DNA of 64,000 bases, taken from positions 76,001-140,000 of the forward strand of contig CAUYUJ010021148.1 in assembly GCA_963575745.1 (NCBI GenBank), given 5' to 3'. The position numbers and the translations under genes were made by a program. Positions 18,606 to 41,515 of the stretch are shown piece by piece (the first letter of the stretch is position 1; each line of letters starts with the position of its first letter). The notes beneath the pieces are model-generated. The model searched no databases and had not been told where the DNA came from. It worked only from the letters and a program-made list of their open reading frames with translations. The DNA comes from Prorocentrum cordatum (lineage: Eukaryota > Sar > Dinophyceae > Prorocentrales > Prorocentraceae).

Positions 18606-18637
<32 letters not shown>

Positions 18638-18727: not shown

Positions 18728-18800
18728 AGAGGCCCCAGGAGACCCCAGGAGACACCAGGAAACCCCGGGAGGTTCCAGGAGGCCCCAGGGGGCTCCAGGC
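18728..18800. repeat. Short CCAGGAGRC repeat block
   Basis: Same degenerate unit as at 10450-10690 and 19440-19700. Confidence 0.8.
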
Positions 18801-20130: not shown

Positions 20131-20184
20131 CTACTGAGACTCATTCACACTCCAACTCATTCTTAGGTATATTCACTCCCAGAC

Positions 20185-22135: not shown

Positions 22136-23060
22136 ACGGACAATATTTGATTTGGGCCTTTTCCTGCCTTCCAGGAGATCCTCGTGAAGGCCTCTTGGGC
22201 AGTTTTGGAAGCCTCTTCGGGGCCTCATGAGACGTCTTAGTTGATTTGTTGGGCCGTGTTGGGCCGTCTCTGGTCCATCTCGGCCCGTCTTGGAGACATG
22301 TTGCGGCCATATTGGACTCTCTTTGGGCCATCTCAGCCGTCTTGGAGGTATCTTGGATGCCTTCTTGGGCCATCTGGCCTGACTTGGAGGCGAGGTATCC
22401 GTTTTTGTTTCGGCCTTGTGGGTCCTTCCTGATGGTGGGCGCGACCAGCCGATACCCCACTGGAAATTCTAGACGTTTTGCGTAATCCTGCCAGCACATC
22501 CAAAAACGGTGCCCAGACGAGTTGCCTTGATCAGGAATGTGGGAGAACGCAGTGGAATAAGGGGCTGGGTAACACGTCTTATCCCAAGAGGGGGAGGATG
22601 GAGGAGGAATCGGATCGGAGGAGGAGGAGGAGGAGGAGGAGGAGGAGGAGGGAGAGGGGGAGGGGGAGGATAAAGGAGGAATCGGAGGAGGAATAGGCGG
22701 ATGAGAAGAGGAGGAGGAGGAGGAGGAGGCGGAGGAGGAGGAGGAGGAGGAGGAGAGCAGAAAGGCCAGAGGCCTCTTGGATGCCTCTGGGAATCTCTTC
22801 GGATTTCTTTCGAGAGTTTCTTGGAGTCCTCTTGGGGCGCCTTGGAGGTCTCTTGGCAGTCCAGGGGGCCTCTTGAGGCGTCTTGGGTCCCTCTGGGAGG
22901 CCTCAGAGAGCCTCTTGGGGGTCTCGTGGGAGCCTCTTGTAGGCATCTCGGGTGCCTCCTGGGGACATCTTAGGGCCTCCTGGGTACCTCTTGGGGCTGT
23001 CTTGGGGCACTTTTGGGAGCTTCCGGGGCTACCCCGGGGCCATCCTGGAGCAGATCGATT
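22136..23060. repeat. GGCCGTCTTGG blocks and (GAG)n, decayed unit
   Basis: 22170-22390 and 22765-23050 are GGCCTCTTGG blocks. 22615-22760 is a GAG tract. 22440-22600 is a head unlike the other units. Confidence 0.65.
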
Positions 23061-23394
23061 CAAAGGAGGGAGGGGAACTCCTTAATCATCGTTGCCCCCC
23101 CCCCCCCCCCCGAAAAAGGTCCACATGTGGCCATCACCTTAGCCACACCAATGACTTCGGCTTCCTCGCCGAGTCCATCTTGCACGCTCCAACGACTCGC
23201 GACCACTCCAGACAGGGGAGGCGGGCATGGGAGAGGGGCAAACCCCTCCCCGAAGAGGCTGATGGAAGTTGGAAGCGGACACTTACTGATCCACTCACGC
23301 CCAGAGGGTTGGTGCGGTTTCTGGAAGGACAAGGAAGCACACGTCTAGACTGTCGTGATTGATAAGTAATCATGGCAACCCGCAGGGGGGCGGC
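23061..23394. other. Spacer with C-run, no gene supported
   Basis: A poly-C run at about 23094-23111 is followed by unique sequence that is open on both strands without domain signal. Confidence 0.3.
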
Positions 23395-24005
23395 GGATCC
23401 AAGGCGCCTACGGCGAATCCTTGTCGCCCCCTGCCTTTTGGAAACGCCCAGGCGGCCAATTGGTGGGCCAAAGTCTTGCCAGGCTGTTGAGGCGTGTGGC
23501 CGTTGTTGAACCCCTCTGGGAAACCTTAGGAAGAGAAAAGGAGAAAAGGGAGGAGAAGGAACACGAGGAGGAGGAGAAGGAGGAGGAGGAGTAGGGGGCG
23601 GACGACGAAGGAAGGGCCTCTTGAGGCCTTCTCGTGGCCGCCTGGGTGGTTCCCGGGAGCCTCTTGGGTGCCTCTGAAGGGCCCTTTTGGTGCCATCTTA
23701 GGGTTTTTTCTGGAGGGCCTCTCAGGGGCCTCTGTCTGAGGGCCTCTACGGGACCCGACCTTCGGATGCCGCCTTGGCGCCCTCCCTCGGCAGTCCTCGA
23801 TCCCGCCTTGGACGCTGCAGGGTCGCCTTGGAGGTCTATGGGGCCGTCGTGGGAGCCTCGTGGGCCGTCTCGGGGCGCCCTCTTGGGCCGTTTTGCGGGT
23901 TTCTTGGGAGCTTCTTGGGCCGTCGTGTGCAATCTTGAGGGCCTTTGGGGCCGTCGTGGACGTCGGAATCGGAACATCACAGTGGTACTCTGAGAGCTGG
24001 GGCGT
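23395..24005. repeat. Compound repeat unit 3
   Basis: Head with GGATCCAAGGCGCCTACGGC, GGAAACGCCCAGGCGGCCAA and GTTGTTGAACCCC (23395-23525), purine tract (23530-23595), GGCCTCTTGG block (23600-23960) and a tail near 23965. Confidence 0.75.
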
Positions 24006-24305
24006 CTTGGGGTCCCCTTTGGGCTGTCTGGAGGGAACCCTGGACCGCCTTGGGGGCATCTTGGGTCGTCTAGGCGGCATATTTGGACCGTGTTGGGCCC
24101 TCCAGGAGCCATCGTGGGCATGTTGGGGGTCGTTGGGGGCCGGCCCTGCTTCCATTTTGGTCGTCTTAAAGGCCATCTTGGGATATCTTGTCCGTGTTGC
24201 GGATGTTGTTTGAGGATGTTATGGTGTCTTTGGGACTGAGACCTCTTGGACCCTCTAAGCAGCACCAGAAGCTACCCCTGTGCACCGCTGTGGATCGAAG
24301 TCAAC
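24006..24305. repeat. GGCCGTCTTGG block and spacer
   Basis: The short unit continues to about 24190. The remainder is unique. Confidence 0.55.
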
Positions 24306-25100
24306 ATGGGGGCGGCGGATCGGAGACGCGTACAGCGATCACGTTTGCCCCCTGCCTTCTTTGGAAGCGCCTCTGTGACCAAACCTTCGGCGAGAGCTGG
24401 GCCAATCTATCGGACTATCTATTCCCCCAGCCGCTCTGGAAGCTCTTTGGGGAACATATGTGAGAAGATGAGGTGGAGGATCAGGAGAGGGAGGAGAAGG
24501 AGGAGGAGCATGAAGAGGAGGAGGAGGAGGCCTCCCAGTAGCCTCTTGTGGCACTTCTTAGAGGGAGCTTTTTGAGGCTCTTGGATGCCTTTGGGGGGTA
24601 TCTTGGGGGCTTTTTCATGGCCGTTGAGGCTTTCTTGGTGGCCTCTTTTGCTGTCGTAGGGCGTTCCTGGCCCGTCGGATGTCGCCTTGGGAACCTCTCT
24701 GAACCGACTTGGGGCCCTCTTGAGGCGCTTCAGGGCAGTCTTCGAGGCCATCTTGGGCGTCTGGGAGGTCTCCTGGGCTGTTTTGGGGCCCCCTTGGAGC
24801 CGTCTTGGGGACCGCGGGCCGTCATCGGGCCATTCTGGAGGCTTCTTGGCGCGATCCTGGGGGCCTCTTGGGCCGTCGGAGAGTCGAAGATGAGTAAACG
24901 CCAGAATTCTTACAACCAATAATTCTGCGCTCTTCGGGCCTTCCAGGAGGACCCCTTGCAGGCCTCTTGGATTGTCTTGGAGGCCTCTTGGGGGCCTCCT
25001 GGGCCGTCTTGAGGCCATCTTAGTCCGTCTTGGATGCGTATTGGGCCGCCTTGGAGGCATCTTGCGGCCATCTTGTGCGGTTCTATTGGGGCCATCTTAC
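24306..25100. repeat. Compound repeat unit 4, interrupted by the LTR element
   Basis: Head with GGCGGATCGGAGACGCGTAC, GGAAGCGCC and CCCCCAGCCGCTCTGGAA (24310-24455), GAG tract (24475-24530), GGCCTCTTGG block (24540-24875), tail near 24880 and a further block to 25098, where the 5' LTR begins. The right flank of the element (41090-41115) again reads GGGGCCATCTTGGGGCCGTT, so the insertion went into such a block. Confidence 0.75.
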
Positions 25101-25107
25101 TCAAAAA

Positions 25108-25371
25108 TGAGCTGGGTCAAGGGGCGATAGATAGCGAGCGTTTGTCCGTGGCCGCTTGGGCTCAAGCGGCCGCCCGCCAAAATATGACTGCGCCTCATCG
25201 CGAGGCACACTACTTGCCATCGAGACCGAAAACACCTTCGCTTGAGATGGCCCGTCGCTCCTGCGACGACCTCCTCCGACTGGGACTATCGTTACTACGG
25301 TACAACAGAACAGGAGCTGGGCTTCGCCTAAGGCGAAGCTGCAGGTTGGGCCTCCCGGCCCCCTTCAAACT
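25108..25371 (+). repeat. 5' LTR
   Basis: Begins TGAG and ends CTTCAAACT. It contains two strong hairpins: arms GCCGCTTG/CAAGCGGC at 25151-25170 and GCTTCGCC/GGCGAAGC at 25321-25339. Landmarks shared with the 3' copy are GAGCGTTTGTCCGTGGCC, ATATGACTGCGCCTCATCGC and CCGAAAACACCTTCGCTTGA. The exact 5' edge may be a few bases further left, because TCAAAAATG resembles TCTAAAGTG before the other LTR. Confidence 0.9.
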
Positions 25372-25386
25372 TGGTAGCGGAGCTGG
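25372..25386 (+). other. Primer-binding site
   Basis: TGGTAGCGGAGC directly follows the 5' LTR. TGG pairs with a tRNA 3' CCA, and the rest differs at one position from the complement of the animal initiator Met-tRNA 3' end (TGGTAGCAGAG), so initiator Met-tRNA priming is likely. The dinoflagellate tRNA itself was not available to compare. Confidence 0.65.
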
Positions 25387-25981
25387 CCTATGGTGGTCAG
25401 CTCTTGCTCTACTCCTCACCATCCACGGCACTATCTGGTGGACTACTGACATGGTGGAACATCAGGGTGCAGTGGGTCTGCGCGGAGGAATGTACATAAC
25501 TACGCACAACCGCAAGGACACTTGCAGTGCTACCTCTGCTCTCGCGGAGGCCTCTTACTCGAGTCCTACATCCCTGCGCTACTACACTCCTGAAGTCCAC
25601 CCACTTATTTGAATTTGACATTTTTGAAGATGCCATGCATGGTGAAATGCGATACGATATTGCGCCGCCTCCGCCCCCACGCAGGTTTACAACAAAACAC
25701 CACAAACCCTAGCCACAAACATCCGACCACGACCTACGCGGCCATTGGATTGGCATTGCTATATTTGGTCTTGTATGGGTCGCTATCGGGTGTGCTGTGG
25801 GACATGCGTGGCGGAAACGACACAAGAAACCACCTGCCCCCACTGGGAACCGGCCGGTCCAGTACTTTTCTGCGAATTCGCTCGAGAGGTACATGCATGC
25901 ATCAACGTGACCACAGGCAATAAGACGTCCTCCTAACAGGCTGCAGCACTGCAGCGTGGTCTGGGAGGCCTCGCACGGACC
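25387..25981 (+). other. Retroelement leader
   Basis: Untranslated leader between primer site and gag. Short frames only, no recognised motif. The first long gag-like frame has its ATG at 25982 (ATGGACATGAGAG). Confidence 0.5.
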
Positions 25982-27290
25982 ATGGACATGAGAGTTCCCC
26001 CCGCAGTCATCAACTTTGGCGTCAACATTGGTGGTCGTCATACCGATGGCGTCACCTACATCATGTTCCTCCTGAGCACGAAGTCTGAGAACTTAGAGGA
26101 GGAACGCCAACTTAACTCGGGAACGGCTCTCATCGACTTTCGCGTCCACGCGGGAGAAAGGATCGACCAGACATTAGCACGCTTCGAGATAGCCCGCTAC
26201 GAGGCTGAAGCGGCAGGCTTTAAGATCCCCAACTTCCAAATCCTAGCAGTTATCTTGTTCAGAGCCTTAGGAGTGGGGACGTCGCGTGCACAACAACTCC
26301 AACAGCCACTCAACCACGAAATGCCGAGGGGATCAACAACAATCTGATGTTTTACGTGAACGCATGAGGTCATGTGCTCACATTGCTGAGCGAACCCCTG
26401 GTAATATTGGTGGTATCTTCAGCCGCGGTCACCGTGCCGAAACCTTTCATGCTGAAACTAATGCAGGGCAACCTGCTACAAACGTCGGGAATGACAATCC
26501 GCAAACAACGGAGACCACCATCCGAGTAGCCCAAAATTGTGGTCTGCCTACGGGGTCGCAAGACTCCCGGGCTAGATATCAGGGACCGTTGGTGACGGCG
26601 GCCCCTACGCAAGCCACTGCCTTTGTAGGCCCAGCGGGGCAACCCGCCGAGTCTGATTTCGACTCCGGAACCGACGCCGACACGTCATCACATGACGAAG
26701 CGATTGCCTTAGATTATCCCGACATGCCCACGTATCTTGCGGAAGAACAATCTCAATGGTTGTTCTTATGAAACCAGAAACATAAGCGCAGCTGGAGACG
26801 TTTTATGAAGGTGCCAAGTCGTATGGTACGACGTACTATCCGACGGGCACTTAAGGGAAAAATGGCAAGAATCGAGGCAAGGGCAAAGGCAAACGACGGC
26901 GACTACATGGCAGAGGTATGCTAGCATTCTTGGCATCCCTGACTGGACCACAGCATGAAGAATGACTCCTGTGCGCAGGCAGGGGCTGCGGGCGCGCCTC
27001 AGCAAAGGGCAAGGGACGTCGGGGCAACCCGAAAGATGCTAACTGTAAAGACATGGAGCGTGACATCTGCCATAGTACACAACATTTCCGCCGTGAACGT
27101 TCCGGGGGCGATGGGCGAGGCAGGGGTCCGTCAATGCATTGGGCTCAAGCCGATTTGGACACGCAGCATGTCCATTGGGATGCACTATTCGCCGACCCTG
27201 CCGACAATCCTACCGCAGTTGTTAATTTCATGGCTGTCAGGCATTTAAGCGAACATGTCCCTCGACAGATGCACCGGTGAGCTCTTCGGG
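25982..27290 (+). pseudogene. gag: gag of the copia element, frameshifted
   Basis: 25982-26347 carries the capsid-like signature RIDQTLARFEIARYEAEAAG followed by LAVILFRALGV, which matches copia gag (UBN2-type) helices. A frameshift moves the reading to the frame of 26286-26771 (LRERMRSCAHIAERTPGNI), which ends in a stop at 26769-26771. A basic stretch WRRFMKVPSRMVRRTIRRAL follows at about 26793. A zinc knuckle is visible at about 27055-27095 as R-DI-C-HSTQ-H-FRRE-R. The CCHC spacing (X2, X4, X4) is intact, but the first and last Cys are Arg (CGT). Two AGQPA hairpin units (26463, 26634) lie between capsid and basic region, and an AGQLA unit follows at 27348. Confidence 0.75.
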
Positions 27291-28940
27291 GGGATCTATA
27301 TTAGCCACGACCAGATTAACCTGGCAGGCTGGCTAGGCATACCCATCGCGGGGCAACTTGCGCATGTCGAGTTCGTTGAGGATTTCCATGCACCCGCCGA
27401 CGTAGATCATGACAGGCGGGGGCGCCCTCGAATTCCGAAGCTAAAATTTCAGCGACAGAAGAGGAAATGCAAATGATGCTCTATCTTCAGGCCATTGGCA
27501 ATTCGATACACATAGAACCATATGGCGATGATAGCCCCCGGGGGGGCCCGCGAGGTGGTGCCGAGCTTGCGGGGCGCATCCAGCATGAACTTGGACATGC
27601 TGAAGATAAGCATCTCACGTTTGTGGCTCCTGGGCGGTCTCCGAGCCGCCATGGGCGATCAGCTAATCGCCAAGTCCGGGGGCGCGCGAATCGCACAGAT
27701 GATGACGAAGACGAGTGGGGAGCTGAAGACCGACGTATGCAGCGTCGCGGTCGCGGCCACTCAGGCGGGCATTCCCGCGCGCGCCCTAGCGGCGACCAGC
27801 GCCCTCGCCCCCCTGACGCGAGCTCCAAGGACCCCGCCGAGGAGTCCACCGAGGAGGGGGCGCTCGACGGGAAACCCGCCCCAGGGGGGGGGCCGTTCAG
27901 CTGCGCCCGAAGCAAGAGGCGCACAACGCCTTGTCAGCCATGATGATCATGGGCCGGCTCGCCAGCATACACCTCCTACGCGATGCGGCGCTGGCTCGAC
28001 CGAGGCTGGACCGAGCATGATTCGGCGACTACAACCGGTGCGGTTACGCCAGGGCGCGGTTTGCGAGTTGCTTTGCGGCGGCATGTCCGGGCCCCTTGTG
28101 AGAGACAGTGTCATAACCGTCGTCGCCTTCGAGCGACGCTGTCATCCTCGATGTGTGCTCCACTGTACTAGAAGGAGCGACAGTGTCATGTGATTCGGTC
28201 GCATTGGGTGACAGTGTCATCCGTTTCGTGGGGGCGGGAGGGGCAGATATGACGGGAGGCAAACCGCACCTTTCGCAAACCGCACCCATTGCAATCGCCG
28301 AATGACATTCGCCACTGGCATTCACTTCGCAACGTTGAGCGGGCTGACGAAGGCAAGATCGTCCGCGCCAACAGAGGCAAGGACGCCAAGACGATGGACA
28401 ACCTTCAAAGACGGGCCCTCGGGAAGACCGTCATCAGTGACCAGAAGACCTACCGGGGCATCGCCTGTCCGCGCGAATATTTTGCCGACCGCAGACCCAC
28501 GCGTCCGAGGCGTCCATCAAGGATCCCTAATTTCGGAAGAACCCCCTGGGTTTGGTCTCGCGGTGATGGTCTGGCCGAAGAGTGGATCCGACCAATCATC
28601 CACTTGCAGAATGTTCGACTGAAGCTGACTACCAGCCGGTTGCTGAGAGATATCGGATCGATCGAATCTGGCAGCACTGCGATACGAACCGCCGCCTCAA
28701 AGTATTGAATCGAGAACATGATGTGGGGCAACCAGCTTCTTCTTCTTCTTCTCATGAAGGTGCTGCCCATCCAGAAGGCATGAAGGGGCTGGTCGTGAGG
28801 TTCTTGCCAACGCAGTGGGCCCCGCTGATGCCGCTCCTTCCGGGCCCGACCCAGAGTCTGAACCGTGCTACTCCGAATCAGCCTGCAGCCCTGGGGCGCA
28901 AGATGCCCGCGAGAGTAACACATAAATAGCTGGTTATGAC
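27291..28940 (+). other. gag-RING linker, decayed
   Basis: Mixed short frames with Arg/Ser/Pro-rich character. GACAGTGTCAT occurs three times between 28100 and 28225. No conserved domain is seen. It is probably decayed polyprotein linker. Confidence 0.45.
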
Positions 28941-29810
28941 ATGATAGCAGAAGATGTGGATCCCACTCCAGGCAGGGGGGGCGACTACCATTGCAACCGG
29001 ATATTCTGGGTAACTTCCCCTGTCAGAAATGGATGTGATCTGGGCTGCAAACGTAAGGCCAATATCACGAACATGGCGCTCCAGAGGCCGATTCCGCCGA
29101 CTGCCCCCGGCGCCGCGGAACCTGCGGCACAACCTCCAGCGGGGGCGCCCGCAGCGGAACAGCCAGAAGAACCTTCCCCCAAGATGAAACCAGGGAGGAA
29201 GGTACGTCCATCCCAATCTTCTTACTCTTCAAGCTCGCACAGGTCACTTAAACCTGACCAACTACTGCAACCGCCTAAGCAGAAGAAGAGGACCAGCCCA
29301 GATGGCGCCGACCCCGGTAGCAATGAGATTCAGCGGTCTGCGGGGAAACCCGCCGAAGGACATCGCCCCAGAGGACCAGCAGCGGCCGCTGCAGCAGCGG
29401 CGTTTCAAGGCGACTGCACGCCGACGCCGAAAGATCCCGCATGCCTGAGCGGCCCGAGGCCTGGCAGGACTCACGGGGCAGGCTGGGCGCCATCGCTGGA
29501 CGGGTCATCCAAAGGGGCCTCATCACCAAAGGGCGGTGCGCATTGTAAGGAGTTGGAAACTACCTCAAAGGCATCAGGAACGGCTCCCAAGGTCACCCCA
29601 TGCCAGTGCTCCGACATCCGCGGGAAGGATAAGGCATCTGGGGGCGCCCGCTCATCGGCAGCGCCTGCAGCGCCTGAGCCAGTGAGGACGCATGGTGAAC
29701 CAGTCGCTGCTACTGCGGGGCAACCCGCCGTTACTCTCGAATGGGCGATCTTGAGGGGCCTTGAGCACCGCCAACCAGATGATGATCAACCCAGCGTGCA
29801 GGCCCTTTAG
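28941..29810 (+). pseudogene. Low-complexity polyprotein linker ORF
   Basis: The longest intact frame between gag and RING (289 codons from ATG). It is Pro/Ala/Ser/Lys-rich (PPAGAPAAEQPEEPSPKMKP, KQKKRTSPDGADPGS) with an Ala run near its middle and no enzymatic motif. It contains three hairpin-encoded AGxPA units at 29139 (AGAPA), 29340 (AGKPA) and 29715 (AGQPA), all in the same codon phase. Disordered-linker character is an inference. Confidence 0.55.
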
Positions 29811-31646
29811 GAATGACGGGTCCGATCGTTATCTTGCGGCGCATTGCGACGCCAAGTGCACTGCTACGCATGCTGACGACGATGCTCGCTCACGTCACAT
29901 TGTCCGCAACATCTTGCGGGGGGAACCTGCCCTCACTTCTCAATCCGAGAAGAAGCATTTGAATGGGGGTTCTTAGACAGGCAGATAGCAGCACCTCAGC
30001 ATTAAACGATCACGACAAGCGTGAGTGCTCGGAGTGGCTCACTACCGCCGCGCGGCACAAGCAACCCCACCACGACGAGCTTTCCGATGGGCCTATCTCA
30101 ACTGCCACCACAGATGACGAGCACGACGGCTGGGTAGAGCTTGGATATATATATATATATATATATAGTTGGTAGCTGGCCGCCCGAGGGCCATGGAAGC
30201 TGGCATGGGCGCCGCCTGGAAGCTGTCAAGAGGCGCCTTCGTAACCGCCATTGGGCCTATCAGGCACTGGCGGTGCTGGACCTCAGCGAAATGCGTGACC
30301 ATTCAAGCATGCAGGAGAGCAGGCCCCAGGTAAGGAAGCTCAAATCCACTGGGGAGTCTCATCCGACTTACTTCCTGCGTCCTAAAAATGGGCGCAGCAG
30401 CCTTGGCATCAGATGTCCCGGGTCGCTGTGCAAAAGGGTAGCCGACCTCGCATCACTAGGAACATCATGCCATTTCATGCATGGTACAAAATGCGCCAAC
30501 ATCCCGAACATACTCCACGTCGGCCCTGTCATGCCGCGCCAGTGGCACTAGCAGCGGAAGGGGCAGACCATGTGTTCATGGATGCCCAGACCTACCTGGA
30601 GATAACAGGATCCAGGTCGGCCTGCGCATAGATTCCGAAGTATTGGTTGTGGTGAGCCTCAAGAATCTACTTCGCGATTGAACTCCAATTTGGCGTTCCG
30701 CCGACGATGTTGTTACGAGGCGGGCCGTGGCGGCAGGATCCCGACCATCCATGCTGTTCAGTTCAGTGGCATCTTGCCTAGCAGCACCCAGTGCGCACGA
30801 TCGAGTTGGACAGGTGTGGACTCATTGTCTACACACCGAGGACAACGAGCGGGGCAACCTGCGTGCTTACAGCTTTCTTCCACCGTCCCACTACACCGTT
30901 CCATGTGATGCTCCAACGCTTAGGAATTGGATGGCCCCGCAGACTCCCTGAAATGTGAAGGCCCCTGCGTGACACCCATGCAAGGTGTCGAATTCAGCAT
31001 TATCTTTATGATGCAAGGGGGGGTACCAAGCGGGGTTCAGATGGATCGCGGATTCAGGCCCAGAATGCGGACTTGTCTGGTATGACATCCAACGGGATCA
31101 CGCCCGACGATCGGCTATATGCAAACGACCCGTGGCGCGCCCAGGCGCAGCTGTTGCCAGTGCCTGCAGGGCAACCTGCGTCGTTCGCATCTACGAGTAG
31201 GGCTACGACCCCATTCGGAACTCCACAGAGTGCTGGATGTACCAATAGTCTGCAGGCCAGGCCCCAGAGCATTAGAACGGACCCTCAGCTCTATATCAGG
31301 CCTTGCAAGCGACATCGCCATGTGCATCGCCGCGCCCACTTGCGGGGCAACCTGCTCTGTTTCTGACCATGAAGCTGCCCAGAGGGCTGAGGGCATGACA
31401 GGTCAGCAGCAGTGGATGCACAGGCAGATGCGCGAGGCCATGCAGAGCATGCGTCGGGATGGCATTGACCTCCCGAGCGCTGGCTGGACACCCCCTGCGG
31501 GAAGATATTCCTGATCCGAACCCATCACCAGATCATCCCAACCGATATGGGTACGTTCCAGCATTCTTCAGCCACCCGACGTACGATCCAACGGTTGCTG
31601 ATCGACAAACGGCTCCACCGATGGACGCACCGATGTTCCCTGACGA
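29811..31646 (+). other. Polyprotein linker, fragmented
   Basis: Frames of 60-140 codons alternate. A (TA)n run lies at 30146-30168. AGQPA hairpin units occur at 30849, 31166 and 31342. I see no recognisable domain. Confidence 0.45.
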
Positions 31647-32405
31647 GTGCGCTCAGGAAACGGGGGTTCCACGCGTTGGTTCTCAGCCGGACAACCCGTG
31701 CGTTCGGGCAACAGGTGGCAGTTTTTACCGGTCCCAGCTGACGCGCGGTGCCGGGCACGAACCGGGGTGCTAGGCCAAGTACCTCACCACGAATACTTGG
31801 CGGCCCCCAGGGACCCTGCTGTTACACACCATGGCCTTGGGCTAGTGGCACCCTCGTCCACGGGGGATCTGCGCCCCGAGATTCTGGCCATCCACGAGGC
31901 GCAGCAGGCCAACTTCACCATGCAATTGTTTCGCCAACGTCGTAATCAGGAGCGACATGCGCGCCGTATGATGGGCCGTGCGGGGGCACCCGCTACTCCT
32001 GTGTCTGCGGGGATGCCCGATATCAGCTTGGCATCACTTGCAGCCGCGGGATCACTTCCTGCAGGTCAGCAGTTATCGGTCCCACCGGTTCAATGCGAGA
32101 TTGGTGACTCCACACTGGAGCGACAGACGCGTACCAGGCCTTCGGCAACACCACCAATCATCAGCGACTGTGATTGCACCAAGTGTGCCATTTGCCTGGA
32201 TAGCTTCGCACACCACGACAAGGTGTGGAGGCTTCAGTGTGGCCACATATTCCACGCGCAATGGTGGGATCGAGTTGCTCACGCACATGTGGGCCGACAG
32301 CTGGCAAGCGCGCCGGAAGGTTCCGAAAGTGAGGCACCCTGTGCTATGTGCCGGGGTGCTGGCCTCATCGCAGCTGAGTTCCACTATGCCCTCGCTGGAG
32401 ATTAG
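31647..32405 (+). pseudogene. Retroelement segment with a RING-H2-type domain
   Basis: A 252-codon frame. The RING lies at 32184-32355: C-AI-C, 14 residues (ending KVWRLQ), C-G-H-IF-H-AQ-W, then a long spacer and C-AM-C. The pattern is C-X2-C-X14-C-X1-H-X2-H-X2-[W]-Xn-C-X2-C, so seven of eight zinc ligands are present and the sixth is Trp (TGG). RING-H2 domains usually act as E3 ubiquitin ligases. In a retroelement polyprotein the role is unknown. I recall similar RING segments in dinoflagellate copia proteins. Upstream are a Gln/Arg-rich helix (QQANFTMQLFRQRRNQERHA) and the AGAPA and AGMPD hairpin units (31980, 32007). The frame stops at 32403-32405. Confidence 0.75.
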
Positions 32406-32953
32406 AAAGCAGAAAACCGCCATGAAGAGATACTCCGCGGGGCCAATGAGCTTAGAAATCTTCGTGAACAGCTCAACCGCATCACGGCGATGATGACAAG
32501 CAATACAGCTGCCGCTACGTCACTTGCGGGGCAATCTGCGTCATCGTCCGACGTTGCAGCAACGCCAGCGGGGTTACCTGCCAAAGATCAGCGGCTGAGG
32601 CGCATGGAAAGGGCCACTGAAAGGAGCTCGCAGTGGCCCCAAGCACCATGCGGCAGCATGCCCTATGGGCGTCCGCTGCGAAACCAGCGTAGAGCTGAAA
32701 GCTCAGTGAGCGCGCGCAGCGGCACCAGCGCCATATCAGAGCGCGATATGCTGCACACGGTGCTGATGGTTAACACAGATGGGCAGATAGCTATGCGTGC
32801 TGACACATACACTTTCGAAAACATGCCGCTCTCGTCACAGCGCCCCCACATGTACGACGAGTACCCAGCGGCCTGGACCTTCGAGAGACAGCCCATCACA
32901 GAAGAAGACGCACGAGGGTACATGACCGTCTTCACGTCCTTGACAAGGAACGA
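32406..32953 (+). pseudogene. Linker between RING and protease
   Basis: The open frame 32490-33029 carries two hairpin units (AGQSA at 32526, AGLPA at 32568), a Ser/Arg-rich part and a moderately globular part (ENMPLSSQRPHMYDEYPAAW). It overlaps the protease frame, into which reading moves near 32950-33030. Confidence 0.5.
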
Positions 32954-33559
32954 ATGGGTGCTGGAACTGAGACGCCGCAAGGGCACGCATGGCACGACAC
33001 TGTCCGACGCCACGAGCTGGCCCTGGTAGCGAACAGTGGGGCCATGGTAGATGGTATGCTGACTATCCTACTGGACATCGGCATCAACATCACAATCATT
33101 TGTCTAAAGACTGCACAGACGTACGAGCGTGTGTCACGCTCCCATGGGCACGACATCGAGAAGCTGAACTTAACGAAGAGGCCGTGCGTTTCTGGCGTGG
33201 GGTACGGCGCCGCCATCTGTGACAAGTCGCTGCATTGCAAAATCGCACGCAAGGAGAGATGAGATCCGGCGGGGAAGCCCGCTTTGGCCAGGCTGGGCGC
33301 CTATTCGGCCAACGTGGCTGAAGATTCCGGCGAGAATATTCCTGCCATCCTGGGTCAAAGGAGCACGTCCAACAGGAGGACTTTCCTGATCCTGGAGCAG
33401 GGGCACGAGAAGATGATCATGCCAGGCTCAGAGATGTATAAGCTCCTTTTTGGAAAAGGCTCCAGCGTACTTGATGTGATGAAGACGCCCTTAGGGCACT
33501 TGGCGATCATGGTCGACGAGTACGGGGCCGCAACGGAGGCTCAATGGCATTTACTTTAA
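32954..33559 (+). pseudogene. Aspartic protease (copia PR), with in-frame stop
   Basis: The flap-and-core pattern is visible: GMLTILLDIGINITII (33062 onward), then VSGVGYGAAICDKS. The active-site triplet reads D-I-G (Asp codon 33074-33076) instead of D-T/S-G. A TGA at 33260-33262 interrupts the frame, which continues as DPAGKPALARLGAYSANVAE and NIPAILGQRS, the C-terminal half of the dinoflagellate copia protease as I know it. The AGKPA unit at 33269 is a hairpin insertion beside this stop. The protein ends at 33557-33559. Confidence 0.7.
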
Positions 33560-35267
33560 CAGCCAATCCCCACCGTAAAGATACACCTGTTTTCGTCAAG
33601 GAGGCAGCTGATGCAGGGCCAACAGCAGGGCAACCTGCATCGAGTAGCGCGCGGACACCCGCCACCAACGATGCCCACGCGTACATGATGTCCCAGGACG
33701 CCAGGGGCCAGGACACCAGGGGCATTCGCTTCTCCACCAATGAGGAGACATTTGCTTACACGATCCAGTCTTTGGTGAACAACGCCCTTAAGATCGCAGG
33801 AACACGACCTACGGGAATTTTCCTACGCCGGCCGATCAGGACTTCGCCCTGCGCAATTAGCAGGCGAAGGTATATCAGGCCATGCACGTGGAAAGCAGCA
33901 AGTGGATGCCGCCCGACAACGCTGCAGGGACACCTGCTGGTGCGAATGCAGGGGGACCTGCAGGGGCAGATGACACTGCTGAGAAGTTTGATATCTTCAC
34001 TTTGAGCAGTGGTTCAGCGGCGCATGGCACGGGCATTTGGACGCACCCACCGCTTGAAAATAAGTGACGGGGGCAAGCGAGTGCCACGGCCACTCGCGCT
34101 TGCCCATACAGGCCGGACACTGAGGTTCTGTCGCCAGGCGCGGGGGCACCTGCATATTTTTCCCAGGCGCCGGCTGCGCGCGCCAGGGACAATGGCGGGC
34201 CCGGCTGCGAGGCCGCCAGAGACAGCGGTGAACCTAGCTGCATGGCCACCGCAGCAAATGAACGCTCATCACATCATTATCGCCAGCTTGCGCTGAACTC
34301 CGAGCTCGAGGATGCATGTGTGATCGCATCACACATGCAGAGGTCCTGGTCCCCACAGGTGCACCATATTTGGGTGGGCTACTTCCGGGGGATTACCAAC
34401 AACTCGTTGTGGCTGCGCCCGCTGACTGGCATGTTCGGTCGCCTGGAAAGCGGGCGGGGCCGCATCATCGACGTATCCAAAATTTGATGACCAAAGTTCG
34501 GGCTTCACGCATGTCGGCAGTCCTTGCGGGACCTCCAGGTTACTTCTGGAGACAAGGTGCCATGCGATATACGATTTAAGAGTTAGACTTGCAGGTCATG
34601 CGTATGCGACGTTTCCACTCCGGTCTAAAGTTTGACCGCTCAAGCAAAATACCTCGCGGATTTTTCTTGCAGGTGGCGACAACCTACACGCGCATTTCGA
34701 GTAATTTGTGGACATGCACATGCCAAGCAGCAGGGGAACCCGCACAACATGCTAAGCATGACATGGATTGGCATGGCCAAGGAGCACTTGCTATTATGAC
34801 TGCAAGGCTAATTGACCAAATAAAGTTGCACGGAAAAAAAGAGATCATACACGTGCTGTGCCCTGTAGTGTCCACGCAAGGGTACACAGAGGGATCGAGC
34901 TTACGTTCAGTCTCCTAAGAATTGCTCTGATTGGGGCCATGTCGTGCGAAGGGTGACGATGAATCTTGACGACAATACTGTTCTGCAAGATATTAGGATT
35001 CAGGACCAACCTATTGGGTGCAACTGCACTGCGCCCTTGCCGAACGGTGCGACAAATATCCGCACTCGATTGCACTGGGAGCCTCCGGCGCCGGTCCTTA
35101 TCGGACAAGAGGACCAGCGACCGCGCCCAGGGCGGGTTGCGTTCGTCGGCGACGATCGTCTTCCCCCCTTTCGATTGAGCTCGGCCGCTTGCTTCGCCCA
35201 GCGCGGCGCAACAGACAGCGCCACCAGCAGATGCCCGGACCAAACAAAAAGAAACGGACAGTGCGCA
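33544..35267 (+). pseudogene. Linker between protease and downstream domain
   Basis: The frame 33544-34005 begins after protease and has AGQPA (33625). A different frame at 33882-34260 carries AGTPA (33924), AGGPA (33948), and after a stop AGAPA (34140). 34589-34918 has AGEPA (34730). No enzyme motif was found. Hairpin density is highest here. Confidence 0.5.
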
Positions 35268-35413
35268 ATGGGGGGTCATAAATGGGGGGGGTGGCGAGGC
35301 TGGTCCGAAAAGGCACCCAAACGGTACCCCAACGAGCCCCCTGGGACTCCAGAGGGGCCCAAAAGGGGCACGAAAGGGGACCTTTTCTGACCCCCCCCAT
35401 TTTGACCCCCCAC
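35268..35413. mobile_element. G-tract foldback element inserted in the retroelement
   Basis: The left end TGGGGGGTCATAAATGGGGG is an inverted match to the right end (CCCCCATTTTGACCCCCCAC). The 146-bp element has paired G-tracts at both ends and no coding capacity. It interrupts the copia linker, so it is younger than the retroelement. Similar elements are at 46087 and 47311. Confidence 0.65.
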
Positions 35414-35702
35414 TAAGCCACGCCCAACGCAGAAAGCCGACAAAGAAGCAGGCATCAAGCCGCGCAAGATACCCAAAGTAGTCGAAGACGGCAATGATGA
35501 CGGCGGCGACGACCTGAAAGGTTTCGGATGTGGCGCTCACTACACCGACTCCCCCCTTTGACTCTGGCATCGGTAGTGACGGCGAAGAGGGCGCTTTCAT
35601 CGCGCTGCCTGCGGGGTTACCTGCGGATGCACATGCCGATGTGTCCTCCATAATCCCAACCTTGTGTTTCGAACGACAACAATCTAGATACGTTGGAATC
35701 GT
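35414..35702 (+). pseudogene. Linker with AGLPA hairpin unit
   Basis: Frame 35530-35718 includes an acidic stretch DSGIGSDGEEG and AGLPA encoded by the hairpin at 35611-35624. Confidence 0.5.
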
Positions 35703-36320
35703 GTGGAGGAAGTGGTAGGGATATCGCAGTTAGTCTTCAGCCGAGGTATATTCTCAGGAGCCTCAGGAGGAAACTTAGACGAGCGTTCATATGTTGACTT
35801 TAGAAACAAGGACGTCCATGACGCAGTGATGCATTACTTCGACGTGCGTTTCGTCAGTGTTGTTATACCACAACCCAACTGCAGAACGTCTGGGCGATCA
35901 TCTTACTTCAATTCCCAAGTCAACTATGACACGTGGCATGAAAACCATAAAGAAGATCTTCCACCTATCAAGTTTTGTGGGAGGGCTGCCATACGTCAAA
36001 GCGACCTTCGACGGTTTATTGTCTACGAGAACAGCCGACGGGTACATGGGTGGACAAGATACCGCCATGGACAACATTGGCCAAGTGCGACGGCACTTGC
36101 AAAGTGAATACGGACCCATGTGCTACCGGTCCCCGCGGTTCCCATGGGGCACCAATATTGAAACCTACTGCGATATCGGAAGCGGTGTACTGGCAACCAT
36201 CAGCATGCCTAGGTGTGCAATATAGAATTATGCAGGGCTGCACACTGTACTCCGAAGATGCAGTCTCTTTTTGTCGACGCCGTCCAGATCGCGCACGATG
36301 TACTCCTAGTTAACCGTGAT
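35703..36320 (+). pseudogene. Unnamed retroelement domain between protease and integrase
   Basis: 35703-36107 reads SQLVFSRGIFSGASGGN, then a beta-strand-like VSVVIPQPNCRTSG, DTWHENHKEDLPPIKFCGRA and an RRFIVYENSRR helix. A frameshift near 36105 leads to CATGPRGSHGAPILKPTAIS. This block resembles a conserved region I associate with dinoflagellate copia polyproteins. The strand followed by a P-x-x-C-R-T motif is reminiscent of a Rossmann-type methyltransferase or hydrolase core, but I cannot name the family. Confidence 0.5.
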
Positions 36321-36435
36321 ACTTTCCATGGTCATCCTTATTATTTTCCGCCCTTGCTACCAAAGCGAGGATTTGACTTGGATGACCCAACTATCCCTCG
36401 ACATCCAGATGGTTCGATCAAGCGACCGCCCACGT
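36321..36435 (+). other. Retroelement spacer
   Basis: The open frame 36213-36437 continues with no recognised motif. Confidence 0.3.
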
Positions 36436-36653
36436 GAGGATTAGGAAGGCCTGCGCGCGCGGAAATTGTAAACATGCATTCCCCTTCGCATGACAGATGC
36501 CCCAAACATTGTAGGTGGCGCGGCAAGGAGGATCACCGCTGGGAATGTCCTAGCTGCCAGGGGAACTACGGCCATGACAAACCTGGTCACTTACGGGCGC
36601 CGGGCAAATCCGATTTTGCCAAACCATGGAAGCTGCCCGACAACAACTGACAG
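36436..36653 (+). pseudogene. Zinc-ribbon-like Cys/His segment
   Basis: Two pieces in different frames: RKACARGNCKHAF (36440 onward) and DRCPKHCRWRG, then WECPSCQGNYGHDKPGH (36492-36590), ended by TGA at 36651. The repeated C-X2/3-C and H...H spacing suggests two zinc ribbons upstream of integrase. I recall similar Cys/His blocks in dinoflagellate copia elements. A role in nucleic-acid binding is inference. Confidence 0.55.
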
Positions 36654-36716
36654 GAACCTCTGGCCCCTGCCGAACCGGCAGCACCACCGCCGGAGGCACA
36701 GGGCGCACCGCCACTC

Positions 36717-38009
36717 GTGCGGCTACGAGCACCAAGACATGGCTCCAGTGCCGGACCCTCAGGTGAAGCCAGCAGCCACGATACTACAGGTGGCAGACAT
36801 GCTGCTGCACCTGCCGCGGGGCAACCTGCTTCAAGCGGAGCCAGTAGCTCGGGTGTTCACAGACTACTGCCACAGATTAGAGCCAGACGTGGCCGACAGC
36901 AGGGAGGAGTTCCACCTCCACCACCACCTGCGGGTGACCCTGCTGCACGCCCGCGACTCCCAGACTGGTCAAGGTTCAATGTCCAAATCAGTCTACAGAG
37001 CCTACGAAGCCTTGACCCTAGCGTGGTAACACGCGAGCTGCGGAAACTACACTTGCGATGGTTCCATGCTGAAGAGCTTAAAATGAGACCCATCTTAACC
37101 AATGTTGGTCTGGCAACGTCAGGCTGAACATGATCAAAGGTGTCTGTGAGACATGTCGGGAAAGCAAGGCTCGGGATAAGCCAGGGCATACGGTTATGCC
37201 ATCTGCACTACCTGACAAGTTTACTGAAGAAGTCAAATGCGTCCTGATGCTTTACAAACAGGAACCTACGATATTTTACACCATTCATCGTTGCATTCGG
37301 TATGCTACTGGAATGGAGATGCCAGAAAAAACAATGACCAGTTTCTTAGATGCAAATCAGCAGTGCTGGATGCAGTTTGGACCTGCCAATGTACTCTACT
37401 CAGATGGGGAGGGCGCCCTTAACGACGACGCAGCTAGGGCAGTCCTCAAAGCAGAGGCACTGAGTTCAGGTTACGCGCGTGTGGACAACGCGCTATTACA
37501 ACCGAAGCCAGAGATGGCGCATTACGCCAATTGCTTCACGTCATGAAAAACTGAACTTAAGTTTAGGCATACCTCTTGTGCTCACACGACTGCTGCATGA
37601 AGCTGTGTTTGCCGCCAACGCGTTCCCTTTCTACAATGAGGTGTCTCCACGCAGCGCTCTGTTTGGGCGGCAACCAGCAATGGAGCATGAGCAGCCGACA
37701 GAGACGTCTGACCATTCCCGAGAACAGGTGGTTCGCAGGGCATGTGTGAAGCTGTCACACACGCTACTGCAGCAGCGAACACCAATCGTGCATTTTGCAT
37801 TCAGACAACTATTACCGGTCAGCACATACGACGAAGGAGACTTGGTCGAATACCATCGTCCCACAACTACGATGGACGCTTGGGGAGGCTGGAATGGCCC
37901 TTTCCCGGTTGTATGGGACGACCCCGACAGGGGCCGTGGGGAACCGCGATGTACAAGTCCAATGCGGGGACGCACGACATTCACTGTACATCCGAGAGAT
38001 CGGTTATGA
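36717..38009 (+). pseudogene. Integrase (copia INT), three reading frames
   Basis: 36717-37127 has linker units AGQPA (36816) and AGDPA (36930), then the pre-integrase HHCC part: LHLRWFH and, after a frameshift at about 37120, GVCETCRES. The core follows in 37130-37546: KQEPTIFYTIHRCIRYATG, TMTSFLDANQQCW and VLYSDGEGALND (second catalytic Asp, codon 37403-37405). The expected first Asp is Val (GTC 37241-37243). Reading then moves to 37479-38009 (LVLTRLLHEAVFAANAFPF, SPRSALFGRQPAM, DEGDLVEYHRP, GGWNGPFPVV), the C-terminal integrase region with the GxxxW-type element. Two frameshifts and a lost catalytic Asp make it inactive. Confidence 0.8.
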
Positions 38010-38885
38010 CAACATTGCGCTGCGGACAGTGTTGACATTTGTTGCCAGTCTACATGCGGGGGGACCTGCTACGACGTTCGGCGATGTCCCGACCAAGAAG
38101 GGATCGCTTCAGATGACATGTGCGAGCCGATTTTTCCTGTGGTACACTTAGCTCTACAATACCTTGCAGGATTTTTTTCGTATCGAGAATGTAATTCCTG
38201 TCAGGTTCGCTAAGAGTATCCACAAGCTACCTCTGGCGGCTTATGCTGACAGCTGCACATTGGCACATTATGACAACGGCGTGAATCCACGTTTTCACTG
38301 CGATGAAGCCAAAGGCACTGCCCGAATATACATGATATAGGTGGACCAGCACATTCGAGGAGCACCCAGCGCCTAAAGTCCACAACATCCCAAGCGGGCT
38401 TCGACCAAGACATGGCGAAGTTTGAGGAGCTGGCTGGCGCACTGACAAAGGACAACGACGCCAGAGAAGCCCCAGAGGCCGAACCGCCACAGGGGGATGG
38501 ACGGCTCTCTACGATCTATGAGGAAACAGAAGCGGACCTTGAGGCACATATTATGGAGGTGTGGTACGCAGAGCTACATGAAGAAAGGGAACTAGTGGAG
38601 GCAACTCCATTCGATGACCTGCACATTGTGCCCGCGCATGTGATCGCTGACAACAGTGCGCTGGCTACGGTAGCTGAAAGCAGCGGGGGCGCCTGCCCAC
38701 GCGGGGTCATCCACGCGGCTCCGGCTTCGAGGAGACGTACCATGCCCCACTATGTTCCACGGACGAAGACCATCGTTACGGATTGGACTTGGACGAACAT
38801 GTACAATCTATGGGACTTTGCTTTACGACCGAAATGTCAAGGGTAGTCCAATCCTCAACAGCATAGGAAATTCGACTTCGACCGT
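38010..38885 (+). pseudogene. Integrase-RT linker
   Basis: Frame 37795-38151 carries LRTVLTFVASLHAGGPATTF with an AGGPA hairpin (38056). 38412-38846 is acidic (STIYEETEADLEAHIMEVWY). The hairpin at 38683 is out of phase with that frame, which suggests the original frame differs here. Confidence 0.6.
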
Positions 38886-39910
38886 GTGACCACGATGCGA
38901 GTACATGTAGCCGCCGCCGCAAAACGAGCTGCGGTCGTCAAGGAGGACGACCTTCTCACGAAGGCCGATATTCTGGCGAACCCAGTTAAGGTACCAAAGG
39001 ACCTATATACTGAACTCAAGACATGGTCTGGCAACAAGTGTTTCAATATGCAATATGTATCCACAGCGTCAAGCATCATGACTTCGAGTCACGCATATGA
39101 GTGGAAGTTCGTAAAGAATGTGGAGGGCGAGATGGAGCGCACCATCGTACTACGCCTGGCAATCCGGGGTTCCATGGACCTCGAGGCCTTCGGTGTGGAG
39201 CGTTCTCAGGAACAGCGCTGCGACCAAGTCAGAGATTACTCGCGAGCGCGGCAGCGTGCAGGATGCAATGGATCATTGCTTCCCTTGACACCAACGCGGC
39301 TTTCTGGAAAGGGTTAACCTGCCAGGGACTTGTTGAGGCAACCGGTGAAACATAGCGTGTGGCGTGTTTTACCTTGCCGCCGCTGAATCAGCATCGGCGC
39401 TTCGATCCCTCCCAGGATTCGAGCACTACGATGAGTCGAAGCACTGCTTGCAGCGCCTCAAGCCAGGCGCCGGCACCAAGGATGCACCCAGAGCCTTCTC
39501 ACTAAAGTTCAGAAGGGCCACGGGGGGCTTTGGTCTTAGACCCACTTCCTACGACGAGGAGTTCGAGGCAAGCAGTGACCTTCTCAGAGCCAAACATGTC
39601 GATGGTATCAATATGGCCGGTGCTGAGGACACCGTCGGCACGCGCGTCAAGTGCGTCGAGGGCACTTTTGGCAAGTGTAAACTCAACAGACACACGTATA
39701 CCAATTGCGTTGTGAGATGCACCAAGGATGGGGGCGGCAATTTTATACTGGATCAAGATGAATACACCAAGCACCCTGAACTCACAGACGCAGACGCCGA
39801 CGCCAAAGCATCAAAGATGGTTGCTGACATGTTTGTCAGCCTCAGAGGCGCGTTGGTTTACTCATTATTCACACGGGTGTGGTTAATGGTATACGTGGTC
39901 TCTCTGCAAC
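38886..39910 (+). pseudogene. Reverse transcriptase (copia RT)
   Basis: 38886-39317 holds the N-terminal RT part (KEDDLLTKADILANPVKVP, YEWKFVKNVEGEMERTIVLR). The frame of 39101-39355 then gives motif A as IIASLDTNAAFWKGL (Asp present). After a stop at 39353-39355 the frame of 39364 continues: LRSLPGFEHYDESKHCLQRL, LKPGAGTKDAPRAFSL and motif C as KHVDGINMAG. The second Asp of the catalytic HVDD is Gly (GGT, 39604-39606), so polymerase activity is lost. No AGxPA hairpin interrupts RT motifs. Confidence 0.9.
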
Positions 39911-40645
39911 GCGCCCAAGGACCCACCAGTATACAGGTGCGACGACTGAACGCGATTACCAGGAAACAACAGGCCTGCCCTGAGAAGATCGTCTATCGAT
40001 CGACGACTCCAACGGGCGAAGTTGACCTGCACAGTGACTCCGGCGATCGACGCCTGAGTGAAGATGCCGATGACGAGGTCAAAGGCTATGCTATTCGCGG
40101 GGCAAGCCTGCTACGGCGTGGAAACACGCCAACGGGCACGATGGCCGCCCATTTGATCGATGCGCACTGCAAGTCTCCTCGCTTGCAGGACCGCTCAAGC
40201 TATTCAGCAGAAGCACTAGCAGCAACCCCTAAACTTGGAGGACTGCTACCCCACGATCGTTACTCTGCACGAACTCCACGCAGGGCAACGGACACCCACT
40301 CAGTGGAAGGATATATTGGAAATGGGTGGCCTGAGCAGTAAGGTCACTTTGACCACAGATGCTGAATATGTCTTCAAGTCCTTGTTATGCAAAGGCCTGA
40401 GGAAGCCGACTGCGTGGACTCCTTTGGGACACATCAGTCGGATACGACGGATGATGGAACGAGGTATCGTGCGCAGTATCCAGTGGTGTGACACTCGCGA
40501 CATGACCGCGGACGGTCACACGAAAGGGAACATCCACAGAGATATGCTCTTACAGGTCATGGGAGGAACGCGATCCTTCAAGCGTGACTTAAAACGTCGT
40601 GCTCCGTACCGGGTTGGCCAGACAACGCCGTCTGAGGCCGCCTGA
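39911..40645 (+). pseudogene. RNase H (copia RNH)
   Basis: VDLHSDSGDRRLS supplies the first Asp and SSYSAEALAA the Glu. After a frameshift at about 40235 VTLTTDAEYVFKSL supplies another Asp, and the copia C-terminal signature IQWCDTRDMTADGHTKGNI is complete. The polyprotein ends at TGA 40643-40645. Catalytic residues look intact apart from the frameshift. Confidence 0.85.
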
Positions 40646-40818
40646 GGAGCATTCGCTTGTACAGCGATTTGCTCGCAAGGCAACTTGCGTGCAAGGGCAC
40701 TTGCGTGCGGGTTTACCTTCCTTGCGAACCTGCCTTCTGCTGCCTTTGGTACAAGTAGTGTTCACTGTATAGTGGCGGCGGACTCATGCTTCGTCTTTCT
40801 CCCCCCTCGATTCTAAAG
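40646..40818 (+). other. Retroelement 3' untranslated region with hairpins
   Basis: Two perfect hairpins, GCAAG-GCAA-CTTGC at 40675 and GCAAG-GGCA-CTTGC at 40691, follow the stop codon, with a degenerate one at 40707. Directly before the 3' LTR there is a polypyrimidine stretch (TCTTTCTCCCCCCTC, 40794-40808) rather than the purine tract normally expected on the + strand. Confidence 0.6.
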
Positions 40819-41080
40819 TGAGCGCGGATAAGGGCGAGAGATACCGAGCGTTTGTCCGTGGCCGCTTGGGTTTAAGCGGTCGGTCGTCAATATATGACTG
40901 CGCCTCATCGCGAGGCACACGAATTGCCATCGGGACCGAAAACACCTTCGCTTGAGATGGCCCGTCGCTCCCGCGACGACCTCCTCCGACTGGGACTATC
41001 GTCGCTACGGTACAACAAACAGGAGCTGGGCTTCGCCTCAGGCGAAGCTGCTGGTTGGGCCTCCGGGCCCCCTTCAAACT
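40819..41080 (+). repeat. 3' LTR
   Basis: 262-bp match to 25108-25371. The hairpin arms are GCCGCTTG/TAAGCGGT (40861-40880, two changes, one still G-T pairable) and GCTTCGCC/GGCGAAGC (41030-41048, perfect). Ends at CTTCAAACT. Confidence 0.9.
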
Positions 41081-41515
41081 ATCTCACCCATCGGTGGGGC
41101 CATCTTGGGGCCGTTTTGGAAGGAACAAAAGCTCTCTTATGGCATGTTCGGATCTTTTTGGGTGGCTGGCGGTTTGGGCCGAAGGCCCACCAGGAATTTC
41201 AGCAAGAAGCACACACTACCTGACATCTGGCACGCCGTGCACCCCTGTGGCAAACCAGCGGGTGGCGGCGGATTTCGGAAGCCTCTTGCACGCGGTTTTG
41301 GGGGCGCATTGGGGTCTACAGTGGAGACCCACGCCAAGAAACACCATGCTTGCCTCCAGGGTGCCCGGTTTTTCCTGGGTTTCGATGCCGTTGCGATGGA
41401 CAACGTGACGTCCCCACACCAAACATCGCTGGACGTTCTGGGGTCTCAGGGTTGGGCTTCTCGTGGAGGAAATTTTGTGGACTCGCCTCCACTGTATTGG
41501 GGGGGGGCCTTTTGG
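41081..41515. repeat. Host flank with a dispersed repeat (41395-41470)
   Basis: Starts with GGGGCCATCTTGGGGCCGTT, the short GGCC repeat that also borders the 5' LTR. 41395-41470 (CCCCACACCAAACATCG, GGACGTTCTGGGGTCTCAGG, TTCTCGTG) matches 59020-59095. Confidence 0.55.

Follow-up and report, generated by a model that had tools for sequence, protein, structure and literature searches.

Arrays of family-specific 14-nt hairpins in Ty1/copia retrotransposons of Prorocentrum cordatum: candidate dispersed recognition sites on the element RNA

Dispersed stem-loops with a common recognition motif are the basis of the packaging-signal model of RNA viruses, as described in parts of PMC6281560. A cis RNA structure used by Gag is also known for long terminal repeat (LTR) elements, as the Psi of Ty1 and retroviruses, and according to parts of PMC8396678 it is unclear even for Ty1 how LTR retrotransposons choose their own RNA. 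Here we describe a retrotransposon of the same superfamily, Ty1/copia, in a stretch of 64,000 nucleotides from the dinoflagellate Prorocentrum cordatum (assembly GCA_963575745.1, contig CAUYUJ010021148.1, positions 76,001 to 140,000 of the forward strand; hereafter the window). This element carries 25 copies of a 14-nt hairpin, and two relatives in the same genome carry still more. The sequences strongly support the reading that these hairpins are an RNA-level module kept by selection on shape rather than a peptide repeat, and they may serve as recognition sites for a protein of the element itself.

On sequence grounds, the window element and the two relatives, C1 and C26, are a clade of 15–16 kb Ty1/copia retrotransposons that are mutually divergent within one genome. 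C1 (contig C1, 2045-2062 kb) is better preserved than the window copy, with LTRs of 289 bp that are 99% identical, and at least 40 matches of its type, C1 itself included, were listed at 98–100% identity over 2.8 kb. The third family, C26 (C26:414501-431500; L041, L039 and L042), is 31–65% identical to C1 proteins in tblastn matches, and its stretch ends short of the 3' LTR. Positions of hairpins in C1 and C26 are coordinates of the extracted stretches.

The initial annotation had reported 21 exact matches to GCRGG-N4-CCYGC in the window element and none elsewhere in the window. The array is real, with 22 exact sites between 26463 and 38683, and the second statement nearly holds, the one further exact match (41834, outside the element) having the loop GGGC and being of a different kind. 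First-order Markov versions of the element contain 0.19 exact sites on average and at most 3 in 500. The loop counts given earlier, GCAA in 8 and GNRA in 12, are correct but refer to 22 sites, not 21. Pair 3 of these sites is A-T in 5, G-C in 7, G-T in 9 and A-C in 1. Variants with changed pairs, already noticed in the initial annotation, are confirmed in the window element (GCAAG/CTTGC at 25512, 40675 and 40691; GCGTG/CACGC at 37021 and 40116), and C1 has the compensatory near-matches GCGGA/TCCGC, GCGGC/GCTGC, GCGAG/CTCGC, GCGTG/CACGC and GCAAG/CTTGC. The general unit is a 14-nt sense hairpin, GC-NNN-GNNA-N'N'N'-GC, whose inner pairs are free but covary. Such hairpins number 47 in C1, 25 in the window element and 35 in C26 on the sense strand, and 5, 1 and 0, respectively, on the antisense strand; the Markov expectation, computed for the first two, is 0.4 in C1 and 0.49 in the window element. 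The other 48 kb of the window contain the type once on the + strand and not at all on the - strand, with 1.06 expected. Since perfect 5-bp hairpins with a 4-nt loop are overall no more numerous than the length of the element predicts (45 observed, 43.9 expected), only the GC-NNN-GNNA-N'N'N'-GC type is enriched there. The sites of the window element are as follows, with alignments to the relatives where these were found.

25512..25525, + strand: GCAAG-GACA-CTTGC hairpin
26463..26476, + strand: GCAGG-GCAA-CCTGC hairpin, aligned with C1 10762 GCGGG/CCCGC
26634..26647, + strand: GCGGG-GCAA-CCCGC hairpin, aligned with C1 10957 GCGGA/TCCGC
27348..27361, + strand: GCGGG-GCAA-CTTGC hairpin, two G-U pairs
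27765..27778, + strand: GCGGG-CATT-CCCGC, canonical stem with another loop; may be chance
29139..29152, + strand: GCGGG-GGCG-CCCGC, G-ending loop
29340..29353, + strand: GCGGG-GAAA-CCCGC hairpin
29715..29728, + strand: GCGGG-GCAA-CCCGC hairpin
30533..30546, + strand: GCCGC-GCCA-GTGGC, fits the type; may be chance
30849..30862, + strand: GCGGG-GCAA-CCTGC hairpin
31166..31179, + strand: GCAGG-GCAA-CCTGC hairpin, present in strict form in 24 of 30 copies of the family
31342..31355, + strand: GCGGG-GCAA-CCTGC hairpin
31980..31993, + strand: GCGGG-GGCA-CCCGC hairpin
32526..32539, + strand: GCGGG-GCAA-TCTGC hairpin, aligned with C1 17187
32568..32581, + strand: GCGGG-GTTA-CCTGC hairpin
33269..33282, + strand: GCGGG-GAAG-CCCGC, G-ending loop, the stem being strict in 21 of 28 copies of the family
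33625..33638, + strand: GCAGG-GCAA-CCTGC hairpin
33924..33937, + strand: GCAGG-GACA-CCTGC hairpin
33948..33961, + strand: GCAGG-GGGA-CCTGC hairpin
34140..34153, + strand: GCGGG-GGCA-CCTGC hairpin
34730..34743, + strand: GCAGG-GGAA-CCCGC, A-C mismatch at pair 3
35611..35624, + strand: GCGGG-GTTA-CCTGC hairpin, aligned with C1 20193 at offset 1
36816..36829, + strand: GCGGG-GCAA-CCTGC hairpin
36930..36943, + strand: GCGGG-TGAC-CCTGC, canonical stem with another loop
37021..37034, + strand: GCGTG-GTAA-CACGC hairpin, pair 4 T-A
38056..38069, + strand: GCGGG-GGGA-CCTGC hairpin, offset 1 to C1 22748
38683..38696, + strand: GCGGG-GGCG-CCTGC, G-ending loop, aligned with C1 GCAAG/CTTGC
39707..39720, + strand: GCGTT-GTGA-GATGC, fits the type; may be chance
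40116..40129, + strand: GCGTG-GAAA-CACGC hairpin, aligned with C1 24838 GCGTG-GCCA-CACGC
40675..40688, + strand: GCAAG-GCAA-CTTGC hairpin, about 120 nt before the 3' LTR
40691..40704, + strand: GCAAG-GGCA-CTTGC hairpin, about 110 nt before the 3' LTR

The hairpins extend from 25512 to 40704 in the window and from 9778 to 25439 of the C1 stretch, between the LTRs in both, and by eye most of them fall in the variable regions that separate conserved protein blocks. The number of distinct stems is 14 in C1 and 12 in C26. No extension of the stem past 5 bp was found, a further pair at position -1 being possible in 10/47 hairpins of C1 and 10/25 of the window element. Immediately 5' of the stem, 81 of the 107 hairpins of the three elements have A or T, compared with an element A+T content of about 44%, so that stem extension may be avoided. 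An Rfam search of window positions 25000-41200 gave no match at the gathering score, at which a 14-nt unit would hardly register.

In its own frame, GCRGG-N4-CCYGC by construction encodes Ala-Gly-x-Pro-Ala (AGxPA). Among 25 in-frame AGxPA motifs of C1, codons 1, 2 and 4 are GCG in 24, GGG in 23 and CCC in 22, codons that make up 24%, 18% and 15% of their kind elsewhere, and the fifth codon, the third base of which lies outside the 14-mer, is used evenly (GCT 8, GCC 5, GCA 7, GCG 5). When synonymous codons are shuffled with the protein fixed, the 46 hairpins observed in the C1 open reading frame (ORF) segments fall to a mean of 2.15 (maximum 7 of 300 shuffles), and the 31 in the C26 segments to a mean of 2.14 (maximum 6). 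The shuffles and the free fifth codon together indicate a constraint on nucleotides, not on the peptide. The hairpins in ORFs occupy phases 0, 1 and 2 in 37, 3 and 6 cases in C1 (n=46) and in 5, 5 and 24 cases in C26 (n=34), where they are mainly read as x-Gly-Asn-x-Pro or alike. The C26 hairpin at 16802, 184 nt before the end of the stretch, lies in no listed ORF.

Pairing itself appears to be under selection. When GC-NNN-GNNA-NNN-GC words are collected regardless of pairing, 47/57 in C1, 25/44 in the window element and 35/44 in C26 are fully paired. Among distinct inner combinations, 14/24 are paired in C1 against a permutation mean of 2.99 (maximum 11 of 5000), and 12/20 in C26 against 1.92 (maximum 7). 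The strand is also distinguished: with canonical stems, GNNA and TNNC loops stand at 27:0 in C1, 17:1 in the window element and 218:0 in 30 partial copies of the window family (described below), and the whole hairpin type is found 35 times in sense and 0 times in antisense orientation in C26. At pair 3, G-U exceeds A-C by 9:1 in the window element and by 104:6 in the 30 copies, which are not independent of one another. The loop asymmetry and the preference for G-U over A-C are as expected of sense RNA and not of double-stranded DNA. Within-family substitutions are uninformative on pairing (A-C 6/279). The proposal of an RNA structural module made in the initial annotation is thus well supported by sense-strand loops, tolerance of G-U, compensatory stems, occurrence in all phases and synonymous shuffles.

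Sites are shared between families. In a mapping through tblastn alignments that allowed loops ending in A or G and took a partner within 21 nt, a C26 partner was found for 12 of the 25 alignable C1 hairpins (10% for random positions; 8 distinct partners), and a window partner for 11 of 26 (6.8% for random positions; 10 distinct partners). At two homologous sites all three families have a hairpin, but its stem has changed between them. At one, GCAAG-GCCA-CTTGC of C1 lies at offset 0 to both GCTCG-GAGA-CGAGC of C26 and GCGGG-GGCG-CCTGC of the window element; at the other, GCGGG/CCCGC of C1 (22748) is aligned with GCAGG/CCTGC of C26 at offset 0 and with GCGGG/CCTGC of the window element at offset 1.

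Within the window family, filled and empty sites were compared over window positions 31100-33700 with about 1.5 kb on each side, the part of the element to which the following results apply, in 30 copies (L009-L038, L009 being the window's own) cut from 79 matches. They contain 279 strict hairpins at 18 aligned sites, 16 of which are filled in at least 4 copies. A strict hairpin is retained in 4793 of 6961 pairwise site comparisons; substitutions account for the difference in 1924, small gaps in 174 and gaps of at least 6 nt in 70. The 40 gap sites inspected are larger or ragged deletions in L009, L010, L015, L023 and L027, and none of them is a clean 14-nt empty site. At one site, occupied by a strict hairpin in 15 of the 30 copies, the window copy lacks 14-15 nt but retains GCGGGG, which suggests a deletion. 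These differences between copies did not arise by insertion of a mobile unit.

The loops differ among the families. Loop position 3 is a pyrimidine in 40/47 hairpins of C1 and a purine in 34/35 of C26 (Fisher 1e-14, the units not being independent), and on distinct stem-loop combinations the figures are 17/23 and 21/22. The difference persists outside the main phase, with pyrimidine in 7/9 hairpins of C1 (6/6 in phase 2, 1/3 in phase 1) and purine in 9/10 of C26. GNRA loops make up 34/35 in C26, 17/25 in the window element, which is mixed, and 7/47 in C1, where GNYA predominates. Such a difference between families of one genome is explained more easily by a reader encoded by the element than by a host factor.

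In 21.9 kb from six other copia reverse transcriptase (RT) loci, taken as the best RVT_2 scores among 150 scored and comprising the RT with 1.5 kb on each side, no hairpin was found on either strand; C1 has six in a comparable stretch, and some thirty would be expected across the six loci. Genome-wide, GCTCGGNRACGAGC matches 6025 times, compared with 848 for the reversed pattern, and about 89 of 100 places listed fall in same-strand clusters. With up to six matches per C26-type element, this suggests several hundred elements or more. The A-C form, counted alone, occurs 2951 times against 938 for the control. Among five further stretches around A-C variants, L043 and L044 have no hairpin, L047 has one, and L045 and L046 have hairpins of C26 type.

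We put at about one half the probability that an RNA-binding protein encoded by the element, most likely Gag, recognizes the hairpins as sites dispersed along the RNA and that they serve in packaging, as in RNA viruses with dispersed packaging signals. Each unit would present a base clamp of G-C and C-G, three inner pairs of any kind and a G-N-N-A loop, and 25–47 such stem-loops would be carried per element on the sense (genomic or messenger) RNA. The first candidate for the reader is Gag with its putative CCHC knuckle. By binding many sites, the reader might single out the 16 kb RNA of its own element and condense it into particles, and different loops might keep the protein of each family on its own RNA. 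Folding in cells, binding by Gag and the packaging outcome are the steps that we infer. It is tentatively proposed, at somewhat less than even odds, that the clade carries a family-specific 'barcode' of dozens of tetraloop hairpins that co-evolves with an element-encoded reader. Related families in one nucleus would thereby tell their own RNA apart, and LTR retrotransposons would have a dispersed packaging code based on self-recognition.

Several observations weigh against the recognition-site proposal. Covariation of the stems, as claimed in the initial annotation, is significant in C1 and C26 but not in the window copy alone (9/28 distinct combinations paired, mean 3.85, maximum 10). Antisense words of C1 are fully paired in 5/13 cases (3/10 distinct, against 0.70 with a maximum of 4). 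ViennaRNA, given contexts of up to 134 nt, predicts a mean stem pair probability of at least 0.5 in only 21/47 hairpins of C1 and 13/25 of the window element, with 29/35 in C26. Local tandem duplication (AAPAALAGPP repeats) raises the counts in C1, and the only hairpin shown beyond the last long ORF, C1 25426, still overlaps the final base of its stop codon with its own first base. The CCHC knuckle in C1 ORF1 is sub-threshold (E 0.0022, 18.5 bits against a Pfam cut-off of 20.8). Finally, the cis packaging region of Ty1 is 5' (+230-580) and not dispersed, and the sequence specificity of its Gag is low, as given in parts of PMC8396678; with respect to such a system the hairpin array would be a different solution.

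Among the alternatives, the hairpins might influence translation or RNA stability in cis, slowing the ribosome between domains or protecting and compacting the long RNA with no dedicated binder. The location by eye of most hairpins between conserved blocks would agree with it, as would the prediction that GNNA loops are more stable in sense orientation (-9.3 against -7.8 kcal/mol in one example). In HIV, RNA structure at protein boundaries reportedly may slow ribosomes. Domain boundaries were also looked at in a Ty3 paper (PMC11381356). The linker position is, however, also explained by tolerance of the protein, and an action in cis, which we regard as unlikely, if still a serious candidate, would not be expected to conserve the loop letters within each family and vary them among families that share a host. 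Binding by a host protein or RNA machinery, for export, control of trans-splicing or editing, is considered improbable: an export or protection signal might well consist of numerous short copies along one strand of a long RNA, but families in one nucleus have different loops and the six other copia RT loci are without hairpins.

A minute mobile palindrome spread inside the element, comparable to the Rickettsia elements or organelle GC clusters, was one of the two readings offered in the initial annotation. Identical 14-mers in C1 (GCGGGGCCACCCGC is repeated 11 times), the occurrence of all three phases and local duplication speak for it. On the other hand, a mobile unit is expected in both orientations, while the loop ratios above show one strand only; gaps of at least 6 nt account for just 70 of the 6961 comparisons, those inspected being deletions in five copies; the stems covary; and homologous sites are kept between families. 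Over the compared portion of the window family, the 30 copies have their hairpins at shared positions and no clean empty site was found, a pattern that the initial annotation itself had set against insertion, and the stems have changed in a compensatory manner rather than as copies of a unit. This origin is therefore very improbable. What survives of the idea of amplification is that some copies were added by local tandem duplication, seen as AAPAALAGPP in C1 and as AGSPAESS in comparison with P0001, a homologue of C1 ORF2. A by-product of a repeated peptide, such as an AGxPA linker or protease site with biased codons, would account for the 37 of 46 C1 hairpins in the AGxPA phase, but not for the drop to about two hairpins in synonymous shuffles, the free fifth codon or the reading as xGNxP in another phase in C26. 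The AGxPA repeat is ruled out by codon use, phases and shuffles, leaving it hardly any probability.

Besides the hairpins, the window element, in a window with a GC content of 57.7%, has the following parts.

25101..25371, + strand: 5' LTR, 90% identical to the 3' copy (about 270 bp)
39349..40341, + strand: open stretch with copia RT/RNase H region, about 71% identical over 39403-40236 to the C1 ORF matching RVT_2
40812..41080, + strand: 3' LTR

The RVT_2 match (E 2.5e-11, Pfam scan) is that of C1 ORF4, and the window copy is placed through its identity to C1. The first long open frame of C1 (stop to stop) starts within the 5' LTR, at 9508 of the joined stretch (L005:3508) in an LTR at 9383-9671. 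C1 ORF2 (L005:5895-9998) contains at residues 922-1061 a Tpt1/KptA RNA 2'-phosphotransferase domain (PF01885, E 3.7e-15; window about 30243-30882), an unusual passenger for a copia polyprotein, of which a broad literature search gave no report among the matches listed. A RING finger (PF13639, E 2.7e-7) follows this domain in the C1 polyprotein (L006:2-2812), and window positions of about 32170-32360 align with it. In C1 ORF3 (L006:2816-6607), LELCGGKGG resembles an S-adenosylmethionine-binding motif; a cytosine methyltransferase suspected there was rejected, Pfam giving no methyltransferase family at E<=1. P0002, a named P. cordatum protein, is 87% identical to a related element over 118 residues. 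P0001 (903 amino acids), which shares 78% identity with C1 ORF2, is assigned to a Myxococcales metagenome-assembled genome and is probably from a misbinned dinoflagellate contig; it keeps most AGxPA sites and differs in the local AGSPAESS repeat. Nameless ENA/JGI proteins, P0003-P0013, are 50–85% identical to C1 ORF4, suggesting that the clade is more widespread, and DNA of relatives from other species was not found in the viral and genome contig collections searched. Elsewhere in the window, 6755-7433, 53466-54172 and 54961-56238 hold tandem arrays of 77 and 65 nt units and a repeat of about 430 nt with large inverted copies.

Of the described systems, Rickettsia palindromic elements and organelle GC clusters resemble the present hairpins in being short palindromes inside ORFs in several frames; here the unit is 14 nt long, on one strand only, with compensatory stems and no evidence of insertion. 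The hairpins of C26 resemble GNRA tetraloop hairpins, being GNRA in 34/35 cases and closed by G-C, whereas C1 differs with 40/47 GNYA. Words of the 11-nt GNRA receptor, the only receptor sought, form no array, with one chance-like pair in the window. No description of a comparable hairpin array in a retrotransposon was found among the listed titles and abstract openings, a search with poor coverage of the subscription literature. Hairpin arrays that differ among families within one genome are a ready test system for the choice of own RNA, and compensatory evolution is readable within single genomic copies because each has dozens of units. Psi of Ty1 lies near the 5' end (+230-580; PMC8396678, in part), while here 25–47 similar hairpins are spread over 16 kb. 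Closest in design are the dispersed packaging signals of viruses, MS2 and others, with many short stem-loops along the genomic RNA, a common loop motif and variable stems (parts of PMC6281560); here the carrier is an LTR retrotransposon with a very short motif that hardly varies, and binding of this motif by a capsid protein would be the counterpart suggested by that likeness.

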